DNA from: Verrucomicrobiales bacterium
GTDB lineage: Bacteria; Verrucomicrobiota; Verrucomicrobiia; Limisphaerales; UBA1100
DNA length: 12,270 nt
Assembly (NCBI GenBank): GCA_002719595.1
Contig: PBEJ01000029.1
Span: 1-12,270 of the forward strand
Direction: 5' to 3'
A program made the translations under genes and the position numbers. A model generated the notes under the pieces. The model saw only the letters and a program-made list of their open reading frames with translations. It was not told the DNA's origin and ran no database searches. The first letter of the stretch is position 1, and each line of letters starts with the position of its first letter. Below are positions 1 through 12,233 of this stretch, one piece after another.

Positions 1-303
1 CTGCACGTTCTCCTCGACGTTCAAATAAGGCACCAAGTGAAACATTTGGAAGACAAAGCCTACCTCATTGGATCGAAAATTTCCGAGTTCTGAAGGTGAT
101 AGCTGATATAAATTGTCGCCTTTGTATTTGATTTCTCCTTCAGTGGGTCGAAGCATTCCGCCCAAAGCGAGAAGTAGAGTTGTTTTTCCGCTTCCACTTG
201 CTCCTTTAATAACCACGAATTCGCCCTTTGTCAGGTTAAGATCAAAGGGAGACAGCGCAGTGACATCACCAAAACATTTCGTAACTTGTTTACAGGTAAT
301 CAT
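1..303 (-). CDS. LolD/MacB-type ABC transporter ATP-binding protein (3' end outside window)
   Basis: Only the first 101 codons are present; the gene runs off the left edge, so it is partial because of the window and not because it is broken. Reading the minus strand from the ATG at 303-301, the protein has a Walker A motif GASGSGKTT at about residues 34-42 and a Q-loop with FVFQMFHLVPYL (about 83-94). This Q-loop form is typical of the LolD/MacB/FtsE branch, whose members drive FtsX-type permeases in lipoprotein release, macrolide or peptide export, or cell-wall hydrolase control. The start codon shares one base with the stop of the upstream FtsX-type permease (TAATG), so the two are very likely translationally coupled and form one complex. 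The signature motif and Walker B lie outside the window. Family assignment is firm; substrate is unknown. Confidence 0.93.
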   Translation of the reverse strand, partial: MITCKQVTKCFGDVTALSPFDLNLTKGEFVVIKGASGSGKTTLLLALGGMLRPTEGEIKYKGDNLYQLSPSELGNFRSNEVGFVFQMFHLVPYLNVEENVQ

Positions 304-1589
304 TAATCGTGACGTAGGGTGTCGGCAGGATCTTGAACGACAGCCAACATCGCTGGGATGAATGTCGCCAGAGCTGCAAAGGCCGGGGCCAGCCAAAGTG
401 CTTCAATGAGCAGGGAAGGTTCCCATTTTAATTGGGCTTTTGTTAAAGCGAATAGTTCCTGCCCAAAGTTCAAAGTTATGTATCCACCAATTACATAGCC
501 AATAATCGCTCCGGCAATACCAATGGCAACTGCTTTGCCGAGAAATAATATGGCGATGTGCAAGCCTCCGTGACCAAGGGCTCTAAATATACCGATCTCT
601 TGTCTTCGGTCCCGTGTGTTAAGCATCGCTAAGGCTGCGATGGATAAACCGCAAAGAAAGACCATCACCGGAAGCATTTTGGTAAAAGTTTTTTCCAGAT
701 TACTGGTTTGTGACTCAATTGCGTCGTTTATTACTTTGGGCATGGCTTCTCCCAATTGAGCCTCCATCAGTCGTCTTTGTTGTTCACGAGCCTCTGCCAT
801 ATCCTGCATTCGAAATACCTTAGCTTTAGGTAAAATTGGCGCCAGTTGCTCGCGTAGCAGCGTTAAAGTATCCTGTGACTCATCAGCACAGTAGCAATCA
901 AGTGCCTGGATTTCGTTAATTAAACCTTCCCGGTTCAATACCGATTGTGCATCTGCCAAGTGCATATAAATTCGAATTTCAGCACCACTCCCTTTTTCTG
1001 CTAACACGCGGTCTACTTGGAATTCACCGTTTTCAACCTTTACCAAATCATCACGCTTAACCTTGTGGATTTCAGATAGTGTTTTACCTAACTGTATGGT
1101 TCCTCGCTTTACCGGTGTAATCATAATCGGTTTTTCCCGGCCAGGAGGGGCGACTTCGCGGGGGGCTAATCCATAAACCATGGCCGGTGAGCCGCGCCAA
1201 TCAATCTTCCATTTTAAAATGGCTGACAGATGGGAATAGTTGATCTGTTTAGTGACGTTTGTAAATTGTTGGAGCCAGTCTTCTGGAAAAGTTACTTTTG
1301 AAAACCCTTCATCCCAGAAATGTGCTAAATCAGTTTCTTCGGAAACTATCCGGAGGTTTTGCCCCATATCCCTTTGAATCCGTTTTGTTTTTTTCTGTGT
1401 GGATTGCGATATTCCATCTGTTGATGCATTCATGTCACCGAGAATCTTTGCTTGCTCACGTTGCGTTCCCTGGCTAACGCTGAAAAATATTACAACCAAA
1501 GCTACGGCGATAGTTATCGCAAGCAGACTCAAAAGCGCATTCGCTTTACGATGGGTGATTTCTTTAAGAATCAGTGTTAGTGGATTCAT
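303..1589 (-). CDS. FtsX/MacB-like ABC transporter permease
   Basis: A 428-residue inner-membrane protein with the MacB/LolC layout: one N-terminal membrane helix (about 18-39), a long periplasmic region (about 40-303), then three C-terminal helices (about 305-325, 345-372, 393-418). The cytoplasmic loop after helix 2 carries the FtsX signature RRQEIGIFRALG (328-339), and the end reads DPADTLRHD, a common close for this family. The end of the periplasmic part (about 260-302) is charged and helical, as in MacB-type stalks, and the domain also holds a CYC motif at 232-234. Its ATG overlaps the stop of the upstream CxC protein by four bases, and its stop overlaps the ATPase start. These proteins usually transmit ATP-driven conformational change to a periplasmic partner or extract lipoproteins; the cargo here is unknown. 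A weak AAGAG lies just before the start. Confidence 0.93.
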   Translation of the reverse strand: MNPLTLILKEITHRKANALLSLLAITIAVALVVIFFSVSQGTQREQAKILGDMNASTDGISQSTQKKTKRIQRDMGQNLRIVSEETDLAHFWDEGFSKVTFPEDWLQQFTNVTKQINYSHLSAILKWKIDWRGSPAMVYGLAPREVAPPGREKPIMITPVKRGTIQLGKTLSEIHKVKRDDLVKVENGEFQVDRVLAEKGSGAEIRIYMHLADAQSVLNREGLINEIQALDCYCADESQDTLTLLREQLAPILPKAKVFRMQDMAEAREQQRRLMEAQLGEAMPKVINDAIESQTSNLEKTFTKMLPVMVFLCGLSIAALAMLNTRDRRQEIGIFRALGHGGLHIAILFLGKAVAIGIAGAIIGYVIGGYITLNFGQELFALTKAQLKWEPSLLIEALWLAPAFAALATFIPAMLAVVQDPADTLRHD

Positions 1590-2779
1590 GAGCTCTTTTT
1601 ACGTGCGAAAATCAATATTGCACACCCCGTTAAAAGTATAGGAGCACCAGCAATCATTATCCATTGAATCATTGACCGTGATTGAGGTGGATTTGTCGGT
1701 TTTGCTTCTGTGATGGCGGGGCTTGCGGGCTCGGTGTTTTTCTGCTCAACAGGTGTTTGTAGTTCTTGAGCCTCAGGTTCCTTTAAAGAACCTTCTCGAT
1801 AGCCCATCAGTAAATCATCAAGTGAGCCTCCGATAATTGTCTGTCTGTTGGCTCCTTGACCCTTGCCGCCTTTACTTAAGATTTGGCTCATTTCTAGTCG
1901 AATTGCGGGGCTTTCAGGATCAAATCCGAGTTGGTTGGAAAGTCGCTTTTGTAAATCATCATCCCATTTTTGTGGGACCATAGTTCCCTGCATCCATTTA
2001 CGATCCAAACCACATTCACAGTTTAGCCCAATTGTATTGACTATCGCTTTAAGTGAACGCTCATCCAGTCGCTCATTACGCAAGACAGGGCCGATCATAC
2101 GGCCGCGGCCGTAGAGTATAGCTACCTGTGGAGTTTCCGATATCTCAGTGATTCCCATACTCCAGAGAAACGTCTTCTCAGAATTGAAGTCCTTGATTGA
2201 AATAATCTCTACGACCGGGGGTTCCCGGATTTCTTTCTCCAGTTTATCCATCTGACCGCTTATCGATTTCACAACCCTATTGGCTAGGCCCCGAATTCTC
2301 TGATTTTCTTCAAGGTTTTTACCTTCAGTAATCAGAATCACACAATAGTGTTCGTACGCCTTTGAAATGACTGAATTCCGCCGTTCTGAATCAAATACCG
2401 ACTCAAGTCCATCCCAGGCAGATACTGCCAGGGGCCTTCCTTCTACCGATAACTTTACTGGTAGTGATTGTTTTTTATCAGGGGATACCAATACCGCTTG
2501 TGGTTGTGTTAATTCCCTCGGGACAAATTGTGCAGCTTTGCCTTTGAGGGCATCCTTTGGACTTAGGACTGAGGCCTTAACATTAGAATCTAGATAAGTG
2601 GTATACGCGGCTGACTCGAGTAGTTCCAATTCAGAGGTTGGGGTGTCTTCTGGAACAAATATAAATAAACGATAAGGCTCAGAACCCAAATCTACAAAAC
2701 CTACATCTCTGACATTAAAACGGCATGCCAGTGTGTCTATTGAAATCAAGCAGGCAAAAATGAGACCTAGTTTTTTCAT
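1586..2779 (-). CDS. Exported, C-terminally anchored CxC protein (protein A), function unknown
   Basis: Not recognised as a named family. The 397-residue form starts at the ATG at 2779, which overlaps the ThiF-like gene's stop as ATGA. An upstream in-frame GTG at 2794 would add MCRCE and spoil the signal peptide, so it was not chosen. Residues 1-18 form a signal peptide (MKK, then a hydrophobic stretch) ending TLA, and the mature protein would begin with Cys19; a lipoprotein is possible but the lipobox is poor. After a mixed globular region comes ILYGRGR (221-227) and CEC at 254-256, then a Pro/Glu-rich linker (about 333-368), one membrane helix (about 371-392) and the tail RKKSS. It is a diverged paralogue of protein B at the other end of the window, matching it in signal peptide, N-terminal Cys, GRGR, CxC and C-terminal anchor. 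Position between an E1-like gene and an FtsX permease suggests a periplasmic partner of one of these systems; that is inference. Confidence 0.85.
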   Translation of the reverse strand: MKKLGLIFACLISIDTLACRFNVRDVGFVDLGSEPYRLFIFVPEDTPTSELELLESAAYTTYLDSNVKASVLSPKDALKGKAAQFVPRELTQPQAVLVSPDKKQSLPVKLSVEGRPLAVSAWDGLESVFDSERRNSVISKAYEHYCVILITEGKNLEENQRIRGLANRVVKSISGQMDKLEKEIREPPVVEIISIKDFNSEKTFLWSMGITEISETPQVAILYGRGRMIGPVLRNERLDERSLKAIVNTIGLNCECGLDRKWMQGTMVPQKWDDDLQKRLSNQLGFDPESPAIRLEMSQILSKGGKGQGANRQTIIGGSLDDLLMGYREGSLKEPEAQELQTPVEQKNTEPASPAITEAKPTNPPQSRSMIQWIMIAGAPILLTGCAILIFARKKSS

Positions 2780-3540
2780 TTCGCAGCGGCACACACTGGG
2801 CAGTTAGGAACTGGTCGTATGCGCACCTGGCGGAATTTCATTGATTTCAAATCGCAGGTCAATAATCGACCGAATAAAGGTTCTCCCAATTCCACAATTA
2901 TTTTAATTACTTCCATTGCGCCCAAGCAACCGACCATACCTGAGACAGCTCCGAAAACCGGGAAACGACGCTGCCAATAATCCGGTTTTTCAGGATAAAG
3001 GCATTGTAAGCATCCTGTTAAACCCGGCTTAAAACTGGTGATATGTGCCTCCATCTCAAACATGGAGCACTCGATAATAGGTTTGCCTTGGGCAAACGCT
3101 TCGCGGTTCATCAAATAGCGTTCTTCAAATAACGGGGCGCAATCCACAACAATATCAGACTCTGATACCAGGCCGGAGATATTTGATTCAGTGACATTTT
3201 CAGCTAATCCAATAATTTCCAGTCTCGGGTTGAGTTCTTTTAAGCGCTCTATTGCGCAGTCGATGCGGGAAGACCCCAGCGCTTTATCTTTCATCAATAA
3301 CTGGCGATTCAAGTCCGATGGCTTCAGGTTGCCCCCATGCGCCAGAATTAACCTTCCTATCCCCGCAGCTGCCAGCTCATAGGCAACCAGTCCTCCAAGC
3401 CCGCCGACTCGGCTGATCATTACGCTCGCATTCTTCAATCTGCGCTGACCCTCTTCCCCGAATCCATCCACCGTGGTTTGCCAGGAATAGATCTCCCGCT
3501 CAATTTCGTTTAATTCGGGAAGATTTTTAGATCCATTCAT
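2776..3540 (-). CDS. ThiF/MoeB/HesA-family E1-like enzyme
   Basis: A 254-residue cytoplasmic Rossmann-fold protein of the E1-like superfamily, which normally adenylates the C-terminal glycine of a small sulfur-carrier or ubiquitin-like protein (MoaD, ThiS). Visible motifs: RVGGLGG at 44-50 in the dinucleotide-binding loop, DLNRQ at 76-80 (the conserved Arg and Gln), Asp133 in VVDCAPLFEERYLMN, and a zinc tetrad from GCLQC (Cys177, Cys180) and NCPVC (Cys247, Cys250). Cys158 in IIECSM lies where MoeB/ThiF carry a reactive Cys. Two departures stand out: the first glycine of the usual GxGGLG is Arg44, and the usual acidic pair before the NRQ motif is replaced by His68 and Gly70. There is no rhodanese domain and no carrier protein in the window. 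Both ends overlap neighbours by ATGA. Following a molybdate-type importer, a role in Mo/W cofactor sulfur transfer is the simplest idea, but the substrate is unproven. Confidence 0.92.
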   Translation of the reverse strand: MNGSKNLPELNEIEREIYSWQTTVDGFGEEGQRRLKNASVMISRVGGLGGLVAYELAAAGIGRLILAHGGNLKPSDLNRQLLMKDKALGSSRIDCAIERLKELNPRLEIIGLAENVTESNISGLVSESDIVVDCAPLFEERYLMNREAFAQGKPIIECSMFEMEAHITSFKPGLTGCLQCLYPEKPDYWQRRFPVFGAVSGMVGCLGAMEVIKIIVELGEPLFGRLLTCDLKSMKFRQVRIRPVPNCPVCAAAK

Positions 3541-4190
3541 TCTTTAAGGTGTCCCTCGTTCAGCTGCCCTCCTTCGAGTCGTATAAAGGTTTCCCCAAGT
3601 CGCTTGGCTTCATCGGAACTATGCGTGATATGCAGAATGGTAACATCTATTTCGCGATGAAGTTCAACGAGTAAATCGCAAATTTCACTATGAGTTTGCT
3701 CGTCTAATGCGCCCAAAGGTTCATCAAGACAGAGCACGCCGGGTGATGCGGCTAACGCACGTGCTAAAGCAACCCGTTTAGCTTCTCCTCCGCTTAATCC
3801 AAAAGGTAGACGATCAAGAAGTTTTGTTATAGCCATCAACTCCGCCAGCTCATAAACACGTTTTTGTATATCGGCCTCGGTCCAATTACGTAGGTTGAGG
3901 GCAAAGGCAACATTATCAAATATCGACATCGTTTCAAACAAGGCACTATCCTGCGGAACATATCCGATGCCGCGTTCGGCGGGCTTTAGCCTGGTAACAT
4001 CGATGTTATTTAGCCAGATGGTTCCACTTATGACATGAGGACGGAGGCCGCAAATTGCTTCCAGAATAGTTGTCTTGCCGCAACCTGTACGACCCATGAG
4101 AATCCCATAAGACCCGTTGGCTATTGTTACAGACAGGTCATTTAGCTCAAAAGAGCCATTGCGTAGGCAAAGATTTTCGAGCTGAATCAT
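3537..4190 (-). CDS. ABC importer ATPase, molybdate/tungstate (ModC/WtpC)-like
   Basis: A 217-residue nucleotide-binding subunit that powers import through the adjacent permease. All ATPase motifs are intact: Walker A GRTGCGKT (33-40), Q-loop YVPQDS (Gln80), signature LSGGE (132-136), Walker B VLCLDEP (152-158), D-loop GALD, and H-loop His190 in HITH. The form VPQDSALFETMSIFDNVAF is typical of the ModC/WtpC/CysA/PotA group. It is short: ModC and CysA usually carry an extra C-terminal regulatory (TOBE/MOP-type) domain of about 100 or more residues, and this protein ends soon after the H-loop, so it probably lacks oxyanion feedback control through that domain. Start and stop each overlap a neighbour by four bases (ATGA). 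Placement in the importer is secure; the specific anion is not. Confidence 0.94.
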   Translation of the reverse strand: MIQLENLCLRNGSFELNDLSVTIANGSYGILMGRTGCGKTTILEAICGLRPHVISGTIWLNNIDVTRLKPAERGIGYVPQDSALFETMSIFDNVAFALNLRNWTEADIQKRVYELAELMAITKLLDRLPFGLSGGEAKRVALARALAASPGVLCLDEPLGALDEQTHSEICDLLVELHREIDVTILHITHSSDEAKRLGETFIRLEGGQLNEGHLKE

Positions 4191-5446
4191 CGTTGGGGTG
4201 CCGAATCACTTTTACCTAGGTTACGAACAAGCAGGAGGACTACGAAGGCAAGAGCAATCATTAGGAGGGAGACTACCGCAGCCTTTTCGATTTCACCGAT
4301 ACTAAACTGTAGGTAGACGGAAGAAGACATCACTTCAGTGCGGTGAGCATTGATACCACAAAAAATTAAAATAGGACCGAATTCCCCGAGGGATCTTGCC
4401 CAAGCCAAGGTGCCTGCAGCCATTAGCCCTCGATAACCTTGTGGCAGGACAATGCTCCAAAAGGCCTCACCACGTGAGCTACCCAATGTCATTGCTACTT
4501 CTTCCTGACGCGGGCTGATTTGATCAAAAGTATTGCGCATCGTGCGCACAGCAAAGGCACAGGCAACCATGAACTGTGCTAATACCACACCTGCAGCTCC
4601 ATTGGTAATTCTCAGTTGAAGGCCCAAGGATTCACCGGCTTGTTTGATCATGCGTTCAATCGTACGGTTTTCCTTAACAATATATTCACTCCCACCCCGA
4701 TCAAAATAGGTAATATCCATGGTGCCAAACGAGATATTGTTGAATAGAATCAGCAATCCGAGCCCGATAACAAGTGGCGGAAGCACAATCGGAACATCAA
4801 GAATGGTATCGATAAAGTTTTTACCCCGAAATTGGAAGCGCGACATGGTGTAACCAATGGGGACGGCAACCCAGAGTGATAAGAGTGCGGAAATGGTACA
4901 GGAAACAAAACTGAGCTTGGCGGATGAACGAATCCTGGGATCATTAAATACCGCTGAGTAATCACTAGGCCGATCAATTGCTACAGCATCCAGAAGAGAG
5001 TTTTTTGCGAGGCCAAGTTCTCTACCAATGTCGACGTTTACAGCATCAGCCTTTTTGACCAGTTCACTAAGTTTAATGTTGGCCAATGATCGAGCCTCAG
5101 TGGCAAGATAATTGATTCGGTCTGCTTTAGATCGCCCATCAAATGGGGGGTCAATTAACAGGCGTGTTTCTTTAAGAGCTTGCTCCAGTCCGGTAGCCAC
5201 AACCGTTCCATTGGCTTTTTGATTGGCAGATTCTAGGTATTTAATGGCTTCTCTAATGGAAGGAGACATTAATAATAATTTGGTTTCGTTGCTCTTGCCC
5301 CAGCGTGGAACGATTACCAGTGCCAGAATTAAAGATATGATCAAAAATAAATAGAAACCACCAAGGGTGCCTAATCCAAAAAAGAAAGTCGTGTCGGATT
5401 TGGGTCGAAAATGAGAAGGAGAGTCCGGGGTCGGCGTGCTACTCAT
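4187..5446 (-). CDS. ABC importer permease, ModB/WtpB-like, with extra extracytoplasmic insertions
   Basis: A 419-residue inner-membrane permease, much longer than a typical ModB (roughly 230 residues). An N-terminal helix (about 27-47) is followed by a hydrophilic, helix-prone stretch at about 50-165 that ordinary ModB proteins lack. The conserved core begins at VFNDPRIRSSAKLSF (166-180), continues through the ModB-like run DVPIVLPPLVIGLGLLILF (217-235), and is then interrupted by a second insertion at about 237-279. The cytoplasmic EAA loop that docks the ATPase is clear: EEVAMTLGSSRGEAFWSIVLP (315-335), followed by SLGEFG. The last helix ends near 407. The start overlaps the binding-protein stop by eight bases; the stop overlaps the ATPase start by four. 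The insertions face the periplasm by topology and could contact the unusual double binding protein; that is inference. Confidence 0.93.
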   Translation of the reverse strand: MSSTPTPDSPSHFRPKSDTTFFFGLGTLGGFYLFLIISLILALVIVPRWGKSNETKLLLMSPSIREAIKYLESANQKANGTVVATGLEQALKETRLLIDPPFDGRSKADRINYLATEARSLANIKLSELVKKADAVNVDIGRELGLAKNSLLDAVAIDRPSDYSAVFNDPRIRSSAKLSFVSCTISALLSLWVAVPIGYTMSRFQFRGKNFIDTILDVPIVLPPLVIGLGLLILFNNISFGTMDITYFDRGGSEYIVKENRTIERMIKQAGESLGLQLRITNGAAGVVLAQFMVACAFAVRTMRNTFDQISPRQEEVAMTLGSSRGEAFWSIVLPQGYRGLMAAGTLAWARSLGEFGPILIFCGINAHRTEVMSSSVYLQFSIGEIEKAAVVSLLMIALAFVVLLLVRNLGKSDSAPQR

Positions 5447-6971
5447 TTTCTGAATCAGGGTTTTCGATTATCTCAAAGCCCGCGTTAATGAAGTTTTCCT
5501 GTCCAGTTGATGATTTCAGGCGGCTCAGCAAGCGTTGCATTAGTTGTTTGTGCTTCGAGGTTTTACTGATGGCATAAGTTTGAGTAGCGCTCGAAAGAGG
5601 GTTGTCAATACGGATCATTTTTACCTTGTCTCGCTGGGCATGAGCATTAGCTACGTACACTAATCCGGCATCCAATGCGCCTTGGGTGACTTGTCCTACG
5701 ACCATTGGAGCCTCCGGAAAAGGATTTCCAATATTTGGCTCAATTTGGTTGTAGATGCCTTCGTCTTTTAGCAGGTCAATCGTGAGTTTACCCATCGCAG
5801 TTTTTTCAGGATCACCAATTCCCACCTTCATTCCCGGCTTAGTTAAATCTTCCAGTGATTTTATATCCTTGGGGTTTTCCTTTGGCACCAGGATGATTAT
5901 ATCAGTTTGTGAAATATTAATAAGTTTTCCAAACCGATCTTCAACCATGGTGTGAAACGAAGCGTCACAGGTATGGTATACGTCCGGTGTTTCACCACCC
6001 TTCATTTTACTTACCAGAAGCCCGCAACCCATCCAGGTTGTTTCAACAGTACAGCCTTCGCGTTTTTCGAATGCGGAAATGATGGGTTCAGTTGCATGGC
6101 GGTTAAGTCCGCCAGCAAAGTAAACTATATTAGGCCGCTCATCCCATAGATCTCCTTCGGCTGCTTCAAAGCCGTGTTTTCTGAAAATATTTAAACCTTT
6201 ATCAACGGCACATAAGTACCGCGCAAAGTGTAGAGTTGCACGTGGTAGAGTTGCATACTTTAGTACACAAACTGTTACAACCCCGATTGGAGCTTCTTCG
6301 ATTTTAACTGATTCGAGTTCGGGGTATTGGCTGGCAATTGAATTCCAAACAATGGCAGCATCCGCAGCATCAATTTTTACATCATTTGCAATTTCATTAA
6401 CCGTTGGTTTGAAGTTTCCTCGGGCATTTACTGCCTTAAGTAAAGGACCCCACTTGCCTAGATTGGTCATTAGTTTTTTTGTTTTTTTACCGACGCTGGC
6501 TGCTTCAGGGTTTCCCAGGTTTACCCGGACATCTTCACGTAGTAGGTCGTTAACCTTGAGGATTTTTTTGGGATTACCTTTTTTTACCACAATAACCGGC
6601 CATAAGCGGGCTACGGGAATAGATTCTTCAGCAATCTCTTTTTCTTTGGCAATTTGAACGTAGCTGGAATCTGCTGCTAGGTACAGATCGCCGCTATTTT
6701 GCGCCCTGATTTTTGTGAGTAATGTACCCGACCCGCTGTAACTTACCTCGACTTTGCGATCCGGATAATCTTTTTGGTATGCGGCAATGATTTCATCCAC
6801 GGGTTTGGACATTCCTGCCGCACAATAGAACTCAATGGTATTGGCATCTGAAGATGAGGTGGGGTCTGAGGGATTTCGTTCATCAACTAAATGATTGTCG
6901 CGCACCATAAAAGCCACCAGGCCAACAATAACTATTAAGGAGGCAGTGGCGAATTTAACGGGTGTTTTCAT
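5439..6971 (-). CDS. Membrane-anchored substrate-binding protein with two tandem ModA-like domains
   Basis: A 510-residue extracytoplasmic solute-binding protein, first gene of the operon. Residues 7-23 form a hydrophobic N-terminal segment with no clear AxA site or lipobox, so it may remain as an anchor. Two homologous type-II binding-protein domains follow, at about 46-272 and 281-502. Matching elements include SYSGSGTLLTKI (77-88) with TWMGCGLLVSKM (312-323), VNLGNPEAASVGKKTKKLM (150-168) with VGIGDPEKTAMGKLTIDLL (383-401), and a shared closing (N/H)xGFE at 267-269 and 498-500. The first domain also has PVIVVKKGNP and ADAAIVW, which fit ModA/WtpA. Usual ModA/WtpA proteins have one such domain. 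Cys residues occur at 50, 235, 254, 307, 316 and 335, several in the expected ligand-facing loops. The likely role is capture of an oxyanion such as molybdate or tungstate, or another small anion, for the downstream permease. Confidence 0.92.
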   Translation of the reverse strand: MKTPVKFATASLIVIVGLVAFMVRDNHLVDERNPSDPTSSSDANTIEFYCAAGMSKPVDEIIAAYQKDYPDRKVEVSYSGSGTLLTKIRAQNSGDLYLAADSSYVQIAKEKEIAEESIPVARLWPVIVVKKGNPKKILKVNDLLREDVRVNLGNPEAASVGKKTKKLMTNLGKWGPLLKAVNARGNFKPTVNEIANDVKIDAADAAIVWNSIASQYPELESVKIEEAPIGVVTVCVLKYATLPRATLHFARYLCAVDKGLNIFRKHGFEAAEGDLWDERPNIVYFAGGLNRHATEPIISAFEKREGCTVETTWMGCGLLVSKMKGGETPDVYHTCDASFHTMVEDRFGKLINISQTDIIILVPKENPKDIKSLEDLTKPGMKVGIGDPEKTAMGKLTIDLLKDEGIYNQIEPNIGNPFPEAPMVVGQVTQGALDAGLVYVANAHAQRDKVKMIRIDNPLSSATQTYAISKTSKHKQLMQRLLSRLKSSTGQENFINAGFEIIENPDSENE

Positions 6972-7167
6972 TTCAAAACAATCAACGGCTGTAACTAATC
7001 AAGCAGGCGAAATCACTACCTACTCCGAGGCTTATTGGCAACTTTTCTCTGGTTATTCTCATGCATGGATTCTTTACTTTGAACGTACTACTTCACCAAA
7101 AATAGCCATGTTGGCAAGCATCATTCCCTAAGCTTGCTCAATTACGCCGACCCTTTACAATCAAGCC
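6972..7167. promoter_or_regulatory. Divergent intergenic promoter region
   Basis: This 196-base gap separates the two divergent transcription units and must hold promoters for both. For the plus-strand gene, TTGCTC (7134-7139) and TACAAT (7156-7161) are spaced by 16 bases; TACAAT lies only six bases before the ATG at 7168, so a transcript from it would be almost leaderless. For the minus-strand operon, TTGCCA (plus-strand 7036-7041) and a poor TAGTGA (7013-7018) are spaced by 17 bases. A short inverted repeat, GCAAGC (7114-7119) with GCTTGC (7132-7137), and an 8-base palindrome CATGCATG (7060-7067) are possible operator elements. None is strong, and PVC promoters need not follow the E. coli consensus. 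The region as a promoter site is nearly certain from gene layout; the individual boxes are weak. Confidence 0.5.
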
Positions 7168-10100
7168 ATGCAGACCCTTTGTACTCTTTCCGGTCTAGTG
7201 TTGTCCGGTATCTTTTTTGCATTACCAGCTATAACGCGCGTAGAGGCGGCCAGTATTCCTGAGTCTCTTAACGTACAAGGTGGATTTATTGTGCACTTGG
7301 GCTGTGGAGATGGCGAGCAGACCTTGAACCTTAGACCGAATGAAAGCTACCAGGTTCATGGGCTGGATAAGGATCCAGAGAACGTCAGTCTGGCTCGAGC
7401 AAAGGTGAGGGAAGCGGGAGTGTATGGTCCGGTTTCCATTGATCGACTTGCTGGGCAAACACTGCCTTACATTGATGACATGGTGAATTTGGTGGTGGTT
7501 GAGAAATTGGGCGAAATACCAATGAGCGAAGTTATGAGGGTTCTCGCTCCTAAGGGAGTGGCTTATGTAAACCATGGTGGCGAGTGGAAAACAACGGTTA
7601 AACCTCGTTCTGATGACATTGATGATTGGACGCATTTTTTGCACGGTCCGGGAGGTAACGCTGTTGCTCGTGATAAAAAGGTAGGGCCACCGCGTCATCT
7701 CCAATGGTTGGGGAGTCCTCGGTGGTCAAGGCATCATGATCGCATGGCCAGTATGAGTGCCTTGGTTTCATCAGGCGGTCGGGTGTTTTACGTAATGGAT
7801 GAGGGTTCGCGGGTTTCCATTCAGTTACCTGCACGCTGGACACTGGTTGCTCGTGATGCATTCAACGGCGTAATTCTTTGGAAGAAGCCGATGAAGAAAT
7901 GGCAGAGCCATCTTTGGCCGTTGAAAAGCGGTCCAACACAATTGGCACGCCGTTTGGTGGCGGTTGATGATCGTGTTTTTATTACGCTGGGAGTGGATGA
8001 GCCGGTAAGTGTTTTGGATGCGGCTACCGGAAAATTGATACATGAACTGCCCGAAAGTAAAGGTGCTGAGGAAGTGGTGGTAGACGGAGGACAGGTGTTC
8101 GTATTGGAAAGTCCAGCGGAATGGGAATTGAATTCATTCTTGCCCTTTCATAACACTGGGGATCAGGCTAGAGTTAGGAAAGACTATGCATGGAATGAAA
8201 AACCGCGGAAGGTAAAAGCCTACGATGTGGTTACTGGCAAAAGATTGTGGGGAGATGACTCCAAGGTCGCTCCGTTAACCTTATCAGCCGACCAAAATCA
8301 TCTCTATTTTCACGATGGAGAGAAAGTTCAGGCTAGGAATCGTTCGTCTGGAGACATTGCCTGGACAAGTGGCAAAACATTTATACCGGAGCAGGTGCGT
8401 TTCAATTTTGGCCCTAAGCTTGTTGCTTACGATGGAGTCGTTCTTTATGCGGGTGGAGATCGCCTTATGAAGGCCTTTGATTCCAAGACCGGTAAGCAAC
8501 TCTGGGAAGCACCTCATGCTCGAGGGGGTTATCAGTCTCCGGAAGATGTGCTGGTCATGCAAGGCATGGTTTGGAGTGCTCCAACAACAAGTGGTCGGGA
8601 TTCCGGTGTATTCACGGGTCGTGATTTACGGACTGGTGAAGTGAAAGTTGAGTTTCCTCCCAACGTAAGCACTTACTGGTTTCATCACCGCTGTTATATT
8701 GCCAAAGCTACAGATAATTTCCTCATGCCTTCGCGCACGGGAATCGAGTTTGTTGATCCCTCAACCAAAGATTGGGATATTAACCACTGGGTTAGAGGTG
8801 GCTGTTTATATGGCGTAATGCCGGCTAATGGGCTTACTTATGCTCCCCCCCATAACTGTGCCTGTTACCCGGAGGCTAAGCTTTTTGGTTTCAATGCATT
8901 GGCCCCAGCTGCTCCTTCTCGGAAATTAGGAAAAGTTAACGAGCTTAACCGACTTGAAAAAGGGCCTGCCTACGGTAAAGCAACTCACTCAAAAGGTAAT
9001 GCGGATTCAGATTGGCCAACTTATCGTCACGATAATCGCCGCAGTGGTTTTTCTCAATCGAAAGTTTCTGACCAAATTCAAACTAAATGGACATCAGAAC
9101 TGAAAGGTAAACTTAGCGCAGTTACTATAGCGGAAAACAAGCTTTTGGTTGCACGAGTCGATGCTCATGAAGTGGTGGCATTGAATGCAGAAACAGGAAA
9201 AGTAATTTGGCGGTTTACTACTGGTGGCAGGGTAGATTCACCTCCCAGTATTCATGATGGTCGGGCTTACTTTGGAAGTGCTGATGGTTGGGCCTATTGC
9301 CTGAGAATAAGTGACGGGGAATTAGCCTGGCGCTTTCGTGCGGCGCCCGAAGACAGGCGACTTATGGCCTACGAACAGATCGAGAGTGTGTGGCCGGTCC
9401 ACGGCAGCATGCTGGTCAAAGATGAGAAGGTGTTTTTTGTGGCCGGAAGATCTAACTTTCTTGACGGCGGTATGCGCTGGTTTGCTTTAGATGCAAGAAC
9501 TGGCAAAAAACTGGTAGAGGAAGTACTTGATGAAAAAGAACCCGGACAGGACAACAATTTACAAGATCGCATTCAGATTTTGCAAATGCCAGTTGGTCTA
9601 CCCGATATCCTTTCTGCAGATGAAAAGTACATCTATATGAAGTCCCAGAAGTTTGATGATAAAGGTAAAAGGCATGATCTGGGGCCCCATAGCGGTGATT
9701 TTGCCGGTCAAGGTGGACAACGAGGCGGAGAAACCGCCCATGTCTTTTGTCCTACAGGCTTCCTCGATGATACTTGGTTCCATCGCACCTATTGGGTATA
9801 TGGCCGAAGTTTTGCTGGTGGTCATGGTGGTTACTATCAAGCGGGTAAGTTTGCCCCATCTGGTCGCTTGTTGGTTTTTGATGAAGATAAGGTTTATGGC
9901 TTTGGCCGCAAACCCCAGTATTATAAATGGACTACCATTTTGGAGCATCAACTCTTTGCCAGTGAACGCAACCGAAAGGCTCCCCCACCTCCGGTCCCCG
10001 GCCAGAAGAGGCAACGTGCCGCAGGTTCAATGATTGACTATGGCACACCTAGGACTCTGGACCCCACCAATAAAGCCTTAACTATCAGTGCTTGGTGTAT

Positions 10101-11022
10101 TTCTGAAAAAAATGCCGGCGTCGTTATGGCGCACGGAGGTCCTTTAAACGGTTATGCTTTAACCGTGGAAAAAGGTCTGCCGACCTTTTTGGTTCGCTCC
10201 GAAGAGAAACTTACCTGCGTTAAAGGAAAGAAGAAAATTACCAATAAGTGGATTCACCTAATGGGTGTACTCACTGAAGATAAAAAGATGCGTCTTTATG
10301 TAAACGGGGAACTCGTTGGCGAAGGTAAGGCTCCGGGATTATTGACCAAGACTCCGGTTCAGGGATTACAAATTGGGGCTGATACGGGCTCAGCAGTAGG
10401 TGAATATACTGTTCCATTTGCCTTTAAGGGAGTGGTGGACGAAGTGCGCGTTTATCACCGGGCTTTAAATGACCCGGAACTGGCCAAACTTTCAGATTGG
10501 GGAAATGAACCCAAGGATAAATCACTGGTTCTCTATTCGGGTTTTGAAACAGGTAAAGCTTTAGATGATTCAGGTAATAAGCACGGAGGCAAAATAACCA
10601 GCGCAAACATCGTTCGGGCTAAAACCGGCAAGGCGGTTTATTTTTCCGGGCGGTCTGTTCCCGGGCGTGGCGGTCCTAATATTGAACACCATTGGACACA
10701 GGATATACCAATTTTGGTCAGGGCTATGGCTAAGTCAGGAGATACTCTGCTGCTGATGGGGCCGCCGGATCTGGTGGATGAAGAGGAAAGTTTCGTGCGC
10801 TTAGCCGAAGGTGATAAGGAAATTGAAAAAGTTTTGAGCGAGCAGGATCAAGCCTTACAGGGAAAGCAGGGCGGTATTCTGTTATTAGTCAACGCTCAAG
10901 ATGGGGAAACAAAAAGAACTATAAAACTTCCATCATTACCAGTTTGGGACAGTTTGGCGGTAGCAAAGGAAAAAGTGTATTACACTACGCAGAAAGGTGA
11001 AGTAGTTTGCCTTAGTGAATAA
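7168..11022 (+). CDS. Exported multidomain protein: methyltransferase-like fold, PQQ-type beta-propeller, LamG-like module
   Basis: A 1284-residue protein starting at the only plausible ATG; the frame is closed by TAA at 7129-7131. Residues 1-27 form a signal peptide ending VEA. Residues about 38-137 look like a class I SAM-dependent methyltransferase core, with HLGCGDGE (43-50), the acidic strand end LDKDPEN (66-72) and VMRVLAPKGVAYV (122-134). DDWTHFLHGPGGNAVA (152-167) opens a PQQ-like/BamB-like beta-propeller with repeated blades (for example VLDAATGKL, AFDSKTGKQLW, ALNAETGKVIW, LRISDGELAWRF), interrupted at about 606-630 by DWPTYRHDNRRSGFS. HNCACYPEAKLFGFNALAP (562-580) is a distinctive Cys-containing blade. 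A LamG/concanavalin-like module occupies about 958-1165, and a final blade closes the protein. Export of a SAM-binding fold is odd. It may act as a surface or periplasmic quinoprotein-like or carbohydrate-binding scaffold; enzyme activity is unproven. Confidence 0.9.
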   Translation: MQTLCTLSGLVLSGIFFALPAITRVEAASIPESLNVQGGFIVHLGCGDGEQTLNLRPNESYQVHGLDKDPENVSLARAKVREAGVYGPVSIDRLAGQTLPYIDDMVNLVVVEKLGEIPMSEVMRVLAPKGVAYVNHGGEWKTTVKPRSDDIDDWTHFLHGPGGNAVARDKKVGPPRHLQWLGSPRWSRHHDRMASMSALVSSGGRVFYVMDEGSRVSIQLPARWTLVARDAFNGVILWKKPMKKWQSHLWPLKSGPTQLARRLVAVDDRVFITLGVDEPVSVLDAATGKLIHELPESKGAEEVVVDGGQVFVLESPAEWELNSFLPFHNTGDQARVRKDYAWNEKPRKVKAYDVVTGKRLWGDDSKVAPLTLSADQNHLYFHDGEKVQARNRSSGDIAWTSGKTFIPEQVRFNFGPKLVAYDGVVLYAGGDRLMKAFDSKTGKQLWEAPHARGGYQSPEDVLVMQGMVWSAPTTSGRDSGVFTGRDLRTGEVKVEFPPNVSTYWFHHRCYIAKATDNFLMPSRTGIEFVDPSTKDWDINHWVRGGCLYGVMPANGLTYAPPHNCACYPEAKLFGFNALAPAAPSRKLGKVNELNRLEKGPAYGKATHSKGNADSDWPTYRHDNRRSGFSQSKVSDQIQTKWTSELKGKLSAVTIAENKLLVARVDAHEVVALNAETGKVIWRFTTGGRVDSPPSIHDGRAYFGSADGWAYCLRISDGELAWRFRAAPEDRRLMAYEQIESVWPVHGSMLVKDEKVFFVAGRSNFLDGGMRWFALDARTGKKLVEEVLDEKEPGQDNNLQDRIQILQMPVGLPDILSADEKYIYMKSQKFDDKGKRHDLGPHSGDFAGQGGQRGGETAHVFCPTGFLDDTWFHRTYWVYGRSFAGGHGGYYQAGKFAPSGRLLVFDEDKVYGFGRKPQYYKWTTILEHQLFASERNRKAPPPPVPGQKRQRAAGSMIDYGTPRTLDPTNKALTISAWCISEKNAGVVMAHGGPLNGYALTVEKGLPTFLVRSEEKLTCVKGKKKITNKWIHLMGVLTEDKKMRLYVNGELVGEGKAPGLLTKTPVQGLQIGADTGSAVGEYTVPFAFKGVVDEVRVYHRALNDPELAKLSDWGNEPKDKSLVLYSGFETGKALDDSGNKHGGKITSANIVRAKTGKAVYFSGRSVPGRGGPNIEHHWTQDIPILVRAMAKSGDTLLLMGPPDLVDEEESFVRLAEGDKEIEKVLSEQDQALQGKQGGILLLVNAQDGETKRTIKLPSLPVWDSLAVAKEKVYYTTQKGEVVCLSE

Positions 11023-11048: not shown

Positions 11049-12233
11049 ATGTCTAAGGATATAACAAAAAATCTTTTAGGGGCGCTTGGGGCACTACTGT
11101 TGTTTTGTAATCCATCAGTTTCAGAAGCCTGTTCGGTTCCAGTCTTTCGTTATGCACTGGAGCTGTGGCCGCCTGATGAGTACGAAGTAGTTCTCTTTCA
11201 TAAAGGTCCTTTGACTGAGGAACAAAAGCAGCTTTTGGATAAAATAAAGCCACTAAAGTTGGAGAATGCCTCCGTTCCCAATATGCGCATTCACGAGGTG
11301 GATTTGAAGGCTGATCCAGATCCACGTTGGATCAAATGGTGGGAAGAAAATAAACCTGAGAAATTTGATGGAGCTTGGATGGCGATATTTTACCCGGCCA
11401 GTACCCTTAAGATCACACCCTTATGGGCGGGGCCATTTACCCAGAAAGGCTTAAGTAAAACGTTTCAGTCACCAGCACGCCAAAAGTTGGCCAAGCGTTT
11501 GCAGGATGGAGACAGTGCGGTTTGGATTTTATTGGAGTGCGGCAACAAGCAAAAAGATGATTCTACCAAGAAGATTTTGGAAGAACGGTTGGTTCATTTG
11601 GGTAAGACTTTGAAAATGCCTGAACTTAAGGACCAGGATGTTCAGGCTGGGTATCTTTCCATTCGTCCGGAGGACTTGAAGCTGGGTTTTTCATTACTAA
11701 CTATTTCCGCTGATGACCCCGATGAAAAAGTGTTCCGAGAGATTCTTTTGAGTAGTGAAGATGATCTGAAGGAGTTTGATGAGCCGATTGCCTTTGCTGT
11801 GTTTGGTCGTGGTCGGGCGATGCCGGCTTTGGTGGGTAAGGGTATTAATAACGACATGATTGATGATGCCTGCACATTTCTATCTGGGCCCTGCTCCTGT
11901 CAGGTCAAGCGGCAGAATCCAGGCTTTGATATTCTGACCTCGGTCAACTGGGATGAACTTTTGGAAGAACAGATTGAGAGGCTCGATGACAAGGCATTGG
12001 CGCAGGCCGGAAAATCACCTCAACCTGAAACGACTGTTGATGCAAAGAATGCGCCTGCTCCAGCCAATGAAGCTTCAGTCAACTCAGTTAAAACACCTTC
12101 CAATAAGCTTGAGAAAAACAATCAGGAATCTGGAGCAACACCTTCACCTTTCATGGGTTGGATTATCTGGGGGCCGGCAGTTATCCTTGGAGCGGGTGTT
12201 TTGGTGCTCCTGTTTGGCCGCAAGAAAGCGTGA
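11049..12233 (+). CDS. Exported, C-terminally anchored CxC protein (protein B), paralogue of protein A
   Basis: Not recognised as a named family. The chosen ATG gives 394 residues; an in-frame TTG nine bases upstream adds only MAH. A signal peptide (1-27) ends VSEA, so the mature protein should begin with Cys28 in ACSVPVFRYALELW. A globular region follows with LWAGPF (125-130) and VWILLECGNK (158-167), then VFGRGRAMPALVGKG (251-265), CSC at 282-284, VNWDELL (299-305), a Pro/Ala/Asn-rich linker (about 319-367), one membrane helix (about 369-389) and the tail GRKKA. The same order of elements is found in protein A, with exactly the same 22-residue spacing from the mature N-terminal Cys to a Phe, so the two are diverged paralogues. 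It lies 26 bases after the propeller gene on the same strand and is probably co-transcribed. Extracytoplasmic location is well supported; metal or thiol chemistry at the CxC is only a guess. Confidence 0.86.
   Translation: MSKDITKNLLGALGALLLFCNPSVSEACSVPVFRYALELWPPDEYEVVLFHKGPLTEEQKQLLDKIKPLKLENASVPNMRIHEVDLKADPDPRWIKWWEENKPEKFDGAWMAIFYPASTLKITPLWAGPFTQKGLSKTFQSPARQKLAKRLQDGDSAVWILLECGNKQKDDSTKKILEERLVHLGKTLKMPELKDQDVQAGYLSIRPEDLKLGFSLLTISADDPDEKVFREILLSSEDDLKEFDEPIAFAVFGRGRAMPALVGKGINNDMIDDACTFLSGPCSCQVKRQNPGFDILTSVNWDELLEEQIERLDDKALAQAGKSPQPETTVDAKNAPAPANEASVNSVKTPSNKLEKNNQESGATPSPFMGWIIWGPAVILGAGVLVLLFGRKKA

Follow-up and report, generated by a model that had tools for sequence, protein, structure and literature searches.

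The first 12,270 bases of contig PBEJ01000029.1 (77,350 bases in all), from a Verrucomicrobiales genome that is 61.5% complete, begin with a run of seven overlapping minus-strand genes at 1..6971; this whole 12,270-base stretch is called the window here, and the genes are called A to G in their order of reading. They encode an importer (A, B, and C), an E1-like adenylating enzyme (D), a predicted membrane-anchored protein with a CxC motif (E), an FtsX-type permease (F), and a LolD-type ATPase (G). Very probably these seven form one system together with I, a paralogue of E encoded further along the window, and with large propeller proteins that share a four-cysteine signature. Because genomes with the gene set usually encode four-cysteine proteins too, the set may build a cofactor for the propellers; on balance, we lean toward the operon being part of an extracytoplasmic cofactor-assembly system with these proteins as its clients, and tentatively suggest a metal-sulfur centre as the product.

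The direct observations concern gene order, protein families, conserved cysteines, and co-occurrence. That all seven genes overlap had been stated in a preliminary description of this DNA, and a reading-frame check confirmed it: each gene starts with ATG and has no internal stop, and the overlaps at the junctions from A to G are 8, 4, 4, 4, 4, and 1 bases. E has an alternative GTG start 15 bases upstream (2794); the 4-base overlap given by its ATG (2779) is also found in L079, a close relative locus whose D is 93% identical. The order there is P1500, a 53-base gap, A, B, C, D, E, F, G, P450, and P960, with overlaps from A to P960 of 8, 4, 1, 4, 4, 1, 1, and 4 bases, nine of the ten genes overlapping. 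The three P genes encode propeller proteins of PQQ type; P450 and P960 continue the run after G, and P1500 stands upstream of A. Judging from L079, the operon would be longer than the window shows, with P450 and P960 falling past the contig end. The overlapping arrangement is more than chance: L079 has it too, and the gene set itself comes back in several phyla. Eight canonical MoeB loci from related genomes, each viewed over 3.7 kb, show no partner gene of D. Predicted promoters and terminators were on average fewer than in shuffled sequence. No Rfam family reached its gathering score in the window or in L079, L117, L158, L130, or L105, so no molybdenum cofactor riboswitch was seen in them.

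An alignment of D was scanned against one genome per GTDB species; 409 relatives were identified among 506 matched stretches, and the 80 best loci were analysed. Parts were counted with profiles built in this analysis, at strict thresholds and within 9.5 kb of D, many of the 80 loci being cut by contig ends. These best 80 include loci of Verrucomicrobiota, Planctomycetota, Kiritimatiellota, Omnitrophota, Poribacteria, Lentisphaerota, and Bacteroidota, and the gene set recurs in the first five and in Bacteroidota. An isolate, Agaribacillus aureus BMA12 (L130), also has the complete set. A, B, and C were each found at 57 loci, E or I at 35, F and G at 29 each, a MoaD-like carrier at 30, and the four-cysteine signature at 24. 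All three importer genes are present at 52 loci and at least one at 61; 42 have some part of E-F-G, and 36 combine importer and E-F-G genes. Looser thresholds raised the counts by up to two per part, and admitted weak matches in L109 and L110 (solute-binding protein, 27 bits). With the 22 loci nearest to the window left out, the remaining 58 (L101-L158) have A at 38, B and C at 37 each, the carrier at 30, E at 28, G at 24, F at 22, and the signature at 17; both modules are present at 30 of the 58. The earlier proposal that import, E1-like chemistry, and an envelope step make up one pathway is supported by these neighbourhoods, which cover several phyla, and by the co-occurrence of the parts across genomes.

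This co-occurrence was profiled in the window's own genome and 57 relatives, counting D at E < 1e-80, the signature at E up to 1e-6, E/I at 1e-15, and A where it matched over most of its length. D is present in 22 of the 58 genomes. The signature is found in 26, E/I in 24, and A in 24 (shorter matches in G009, G013, and G038 being uncounted), in each case including all 22 with D. The signature is thus present in 22 of 22 genomes with D vs. 4 of 36 without: G011, G018, and G019, which are 56 to 73% complete, and G053, which is 93% complete. Taking one genome from each of 38 families, and treating families as independent, the signature is found in 12 of 12 with D vs. 1 of 26 without (p 5e-9), and E/I in 12 of 12 vs. 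2 of 26; relative to A, the signature is found in 13 of 14 vs. 0 of 24. For MoaA, used as a control, there is no such association (11 of 12 with D vs. 19 of 26 without, p 0.39). In a phylum-wide sample of 337 genomes, 21 have a strong D match (at least 300 bits) and 25 a signature match (at 1e-10): 15 have both, 6 only D, 10 only the signature, and 306 neither (p 3e-15), which places the signature in 15 of 21 genomes with strong D vs. 10 of 316 without. Misses are likely on both sides in this sample, because at most 7 and at most 17 candidates per genome were scored.

The signature, C-x(36-37)-C-x(17-19)-C-x-C, is common to P960, P1500, and the window protein H (7168..11022, plus strand; 1284 residues), in which it is formed by C509, C546, C564, and C566 (8665..8892, plus strand); the surrounding sequence has a motif resembling "GCW..IPA.GL...E.S.GC.C". 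Eight further signature proteins from related genomes, including weak matches of 1004-1073 residues, have similar spacing, while one propeller fragment is without the signature region. H is apparently secreted, and combines a methyltransferase-like Rossmann domain with PQQ-type propeller repeats and LamG; LamG and a methyltransferase-like domain are present in P960 as well, and P1500 has a malectin domain. By eye, the N-termini of P450, P960, and P1500 are signal-peptide-like. Among 12 signature proteins scanned by Pfam, 8 have LamG, malectin, PA14, CBM96, or chitobiase-type domains, and 6 the methyltransferase-like domain. The signature proteins are recognised by general domain models only, and no PDB chain matches the signature with a useful E-value. 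Some genomes of the sampled phylum encode up to 17 of them; G171 and G347 have 17 matches each, G347 without a strong D in the sampled search.

Both H and I lie outside 1..6971, in the opposite orientation to A-G. I (11049..12233, plus strand; 394 residues) follows H after a gap of 26 bases. In L063, L067, L068, L103, L120, L127, L146, and L150, A-B-C-D are preceded on their own strand by an I-type gene, with one 138-residue open reading frame (ORF) in between in L068; in L063, L068, L103, and L150 an H-type gene precedes the I-type gene in turn. H and I very probably belong to the same system, which the preliminary description, with its limit at 6971, did not foresee.

Two features of this part of the window may be added. 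In L079, L080, and L081, P1500 lies between H and A; it is missing from the window (6941-7218): 6941-7060 matches the L079 region upstream of A, including 32 bases of the 3' end of P1500 (7029..7060, minus strand, matching bases 4519-4550 of the 4554-base gene), and 7059-7218 matches the region upstream of H. This is either a true deletion or a collapsed assembly. Secondly, the Rossmann domain of H (residues 36-140, window 7273-7590) and that of P960 in L079 (374-467) are of the class I methyltransferase-like type, the glycine-rich first motif being present in most rows; S-adenosylmethionine is not expected outside the cytoplasm.

The layout of importer, adenylating enzyme and carrier, CxC transporter, anchored E, and propellers fits an inside-to-outside relay, of which we infer the chemical steps, the cellular location of the parts, and the direction of transport throughout. 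A, B, and C would import a small molybdate-class anion, going by their family. D would then adenylate the C-terminal Gly-Gly of a MoaD/ThiS-like carrier, sulfur being carried as a thiocarboxylate, as suggested by the family of D and by the carrier gene that adjoins it in other clades; still in the cytoplasm, the carrier sulfur would enter a metal-sulfur or thiolated cofactor. Moving this product, or the sulfur part of it, to the outer face may be the role of F-G (FtsX/LolCD type); there, F would deliver it from its CxC to the membrane-anchored tandem-thioredoxin protein E or I. Finally, E or I would load the four-cysteine site of the large, apparently secreted propellers (H in the window; P1500 and P960 in relatives), many of them equipped with modules of carbohydrate-binding type. 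The carrier, the CxC of F, and the four-cysteine propellers as likely clients go beyond the preliminary description. In a bolder version, which we regard as doubtful, the cofactor would be new to biology: a sulfur-bridged metal centre (e.g., Mo or W with sulfur, possibly Cu), with carrier-derived sulfur, FtsX-type export, a CxC relay, and a four-cysteine seat in propellers that would be extracellular glycan-acting oxidoreductases of Planctomycetota, Verrucomicrobiota, and their neighbours.

Several observations weigh against this scheme. The parts do not always travel together: G053 (L184) has E-F-G-A-B-C and the signature with no D, G039 (L186) has A-B-C alone, and G056 has an E/I gene alone. 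G053 and G039 show that A-B-C can occur in a genome with no D. At 13 of the 80 loci, some cut by contig ends, neither importer nor E-F-G genes are near D, and E-F-G is sometimes elsewhere in the genome than D (e.g., in G020 and G049). The outcome named in the preliminary description as refuting it, parts mostly apart, was nonetheless not seen: 61 of the 80 loci have importer genes near D. In the phylum sample, 6 of the 21 strong-D genomes are without the signature and 10 signature genomes are without strong D, while four weaker D matches near 207 bits, none with the signature, bring the proportion to 15 of 25 if included. Among the propellers, P450 is without the signature in spite of its place in the operon, and an H-like protein of L103 has its cysteines spaced differently. 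The P960 model has a pLDDT of about 30 over residues 911-966, the four-cysteine region, and at this very low confidence nothing was concluded from it; the four cysteines may cluster in space, or could be disulfides. Lastly, no MoaD-like carrier is found in the operon in the window's clade, and in the window's genome, at its 61.5% completeness, a single ThiS-family match was found and the carrier alignment matched nothing.

The main rival to a metal-sulfur product is disulfide chemistry. E (1586..2779, minus strand) has an N-terminus that looks by eye like a signal peptide, followed by Cys19, an ectodomain modelled as tandem thioredoxin folds, an invariant Cys-Glu-Cys (254-256; 2012..2020, minus strand), and a C-terminal hydrophobic anchor. 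I has the same layout, with Cys28 after its signal-like N-terminus, a CxC at 282/284, and a C-terminal anchor. E has no Pfam or NCBIfam match, and comparing the E/I profile with solved structures gave nothing at a useful E-value. The E model (mean pLDDT 79.9) resembles PDI-type proteins at a Foldseek probability near 1 with low TM-scores (about 0.2 to 0.33); on our reading of the model, E has two thioredoxin folds whose relative orientation would be unlike that in these matches. F (303..1589, minus strand) is an FtsX/LolC-type permease with four hydrophobic segments, its Cys-Tyr-Cys (232-234; 888..896, minus strand) lying in the large soluble domain that separates segments one and two; both cysteines are invariant in the 25 rows of a length-filtered alignment. 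F scores below the cut-offs of both lolCE (36.9 vs. 362.45 bits) and MacB_PCD (19.6 vs. 27 bits). G (1..303, minus strand), of LolD/FtsE type, is a 101-residue fragment because the window starts at a contig end, and its 87.7 bits against the LolD model (cut-off 307.75) come from just 100 scored residues. An apparent E-F fusion ORF in L124, on the same contig as L064, was rejected as evidence for fusion because its translation crosses undetermined bases (X) where the two parts meet. Frame changes, probably sequence errors, divide E or run it together with F in G016 and G017.

If these proteins handled thiols, E/I and F-G would supply disulfides or reductant for the folding of secreted cysteine-containing propellers, with the importer and D serving for sulfur supply only and no metal involved. 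The likeness of the E model to PDI-family tandem domains suggests this, as do the conserved cysteines of the client propellers and the TauE-like ORFs near D, which form a similarity cluster spanning six loci (three Pfam-checked). The CxxC motif is nonetheless absent from all 27 aligned E/I rows, whose invariant cysteines are Cys19 and those of the CxC (Cys254 and Cys256; 27 of 27), and disulfide chemistry needs neither an oxyanion-type importer nor an adenylating enzyme. We consider a purely thiol-redox role unlikely.

D (2776..3540, minus strand) is an E1-like adenylating enzyme of the ThiF/MoeB family (Pfam ThiF), with Zn-type cysteines at C177, C180, C247, and C250. It scores below two curated MoeB cut-offs (148.9 vs. 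376.55 and 173.5 vs. 266 bits). Of Arg73, Lys86, and Asp130, which we take to be functional residues of E. coli MoeB, the first and last are retained in D (as Arg79 and Asp133), while Arg92 replaces Lys86 in 16 of 16 aligned rows. In a quick tree, subject to a long-branch warning, 81 D rows are split from 14 MoeB-type rows by a branch with SH-aLRT 100, and D stands apart from its genome's canonical MoeB. Phyla are partly mixed on the D side, which suggests transfer of D between phyla without proving it, given the kind of tree. The D gene of L093, on a contig labelled Euryarchaeota archaeon (SAT1553), sits within a Verrucomicrobiota branch, so this contig is probably wrongly binned. PADLOC matches of D were set aside as weak E1-family kinship.

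The carrier, of about 92 residues and MoaD/ThiS-like, lies upstream of D at the 30 loci that have it, in 29 with its matched start at most 480 bases from that of D (872 bases in L122). The carriers listed have Gly-Gly at or near the C-terminus, bar one broken by undetermined bases, and the glycine pair is invariant in 17 aligned sequences. Pfam assigns the L141 carrier to ThiS; L139 has a weak carrier downstream of D, and L142 another carrier. In the window and in L079, which have no carrier gene there, D overlaps C or directly follows it. Five loci have a second MoeB-type gene, with a rhodanese domain in three of the three checked. TauE/SafE-family (sulfite exporter) genes near D were confirmed by Pfam at L127:4914-5702, L117:10756-11148, and L102:3034-3771. 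Neighbouring pairs of ThiS-family matches also occur in related genomes on contigs other than that of D (G024:C185, G025:C171, G036:C101, and G040:C16).

From the family of its solute-binding protein (SBP), the importer is predicted to carry a metal oxyanion or molybdate-class anion. A (5439..6971, minus strand; 510 residues) has an N-terminal hydrophobic segment and two ModA-type solute-binding domains in a single chain (two SBP_bac_11 stretches in Pfam). Its score is above the NCBIfam modA cut-off (TIGR01256, 111 vs. 62.5 bits, summed over the two stretches). ModA Ser12 and Ser39, presumably the molybdate ligands, are not fully kept: the first domain has Ser81 at the place of Ser39 and Gly53 (Gly in 12 of 14 rows) at that of Ser12, and the second has Cys316 (6024..6026, minus strand) at the place of Ser39, a cysteine in 14 of 14 aligned homologues. 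C50 and S81 of the first domain and C316 and C335 of the second are identical in all 14 rows. B (4187..5446, minus strand; 419 residues) is a ModB-type permease (BPD_transp_1) below the modB cut-off (148 vs. 182.6 bits). Its length of about 420 residues in the window's clade compares with 261-305 in many homologues of other clades, the extra sequence being placed between the first and second hydrophobic segments; residue 183 (alignment column 418), in the first core membrane segment, is Cys in 49 of 50 aligned homologues. C (3537..4190, minus strand) is an ATP-binding cassette (ABC) ATPase of Wtp/Cys type, below the modC cut-off (144.5 vs. 285.05 bits) and, with 217 residues only, without the C-terminal part of ModC/WtpC.

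These assignments bear on a second alternative, simple molybdenum or tungsten supply, in which molybdate or tungstate enters through A-C, D serves as an additional MoeB in making molybdopterin, and E-F-G is an unrelated Lol-like exporter, adjacent by chance. The modA score of A agrees with this, and parts of PMC1779556 describe MoaD beside AOR genes, often with MoeB, as a known tungsten-cofactor arrangement. No AOR match was found in the 58 genomes, however; MoaA, besides its lack of association with D, has no match in G030, which is 97% complete and has D; D is apart from canonical MoeB in the tree; and gene order and co-occurrence link D to E and the propellers. This makes the alternative improbable. 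It is about as hard to credit that the product of D and the carrier is a thiocarboxylate metabolite or metallophore, exported by F-G and taken up again as a metal complex by A-B-C: the double SBP with Cys in its second domain and the E1, ThiS/MoaD carrier, and JAB of thiocarboxylate siderophore operons (described in parts of PMC1779556) would suit it, but no recurrent biosynthetic enzyme stood out near D beyond MoaD and TauE (ORF clusters of at least 4 loci, by eye), and the propeller co-occurrence is left unexplained.

The preliminary description knew of no system with this gene order; in agreement, a limited search of open-licence papers found no description of the gene set. Among known systems, the importer shares the families of its SBP, permease, and ATPase with ModABC/WtpABC, from which it differs in its two fused SBP domains, the Cys at the place of Ser39 in the second, the short ATPase, and the scores of B and C under their cut-offs. 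Clusters in which MoaD adjoins a MoeB-type gene, linked to AOR and tungsten, are similar in this pairing and in Mo/W-type transport, and differ by the AOR gene (matched in 0 of 58 genomes here). F and G share the FtsX-type permease and LolD-type ATPase of LolCDE/MacB, but F is far below the lolCE cut-off, is also under that of MacB, and has the invariant CxC.

ThiS/MoaD-E1 operons beyond thiamine and the molybdenum cofactor have been grouped into classes 4a-4e, according to portions of PMC1779556 (Iyer, Burroughs, and Aravind 2006): these often include rhodanese, in one class sulfate/sulfite ABC transporters, and are sporadically distributed. The combination of an E1-like enzyme with a ThiS/MoaD carrier is found here at 30 of 80 loci, and not in the window's clade; no recurrent JAB or sulfur-assimilation gene was noticed here, by eye and with no JAB search made. 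The main text of that paper makes no mention of propeller, FtsX, LolD, MacB, lipoprotein, Planctomycetes, or Verrucomicrobia. Among sulfur-carrier operons, the present set would take its place next to classes 4a-4e as a new subtype. A dedicated cofactor system of this kind would account for a whole class of four-cysteine propellers, form a new branch of ThiS/MoaD-E1 sulfur transfer, and supply a clear list of genes and residues for testing.

Nitrous oxide reductase has a propeller fold. In the Nos system, as outlined in passages of PMC6530538, the sulfide and the copper of the CuZ centre of this enzyme are believed to come from an ABC transporter and from NosL, respectively. The likeness lies in an ABC transporter (NosDFY there), a membrane-linked protein with a Cys-containing metal motif (NosL), and an exported metal-sulfur enzyme (nitrous oxide reductase with CuZ; PMC6530538, in the same passages). 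The window differs in its FtsX/Lol-type transporter, its thioredoxin-fold CxC outer protein, a client site that would consist of four cysteines instead of seven histidines, and the presence of an importer and an E1-like enzyme. No NosZ, NosD, or NosL family appeared among the Pfam and NCBIfam matches listed for the window proteins, no dedicated search having been made. Nos would be the closest system in its way of working, with protein families that differ as far as compared, and the gene set described here, if the scheme is true, another route besides Nos by which sulfur-containing centres are built outside the cytoplasm.

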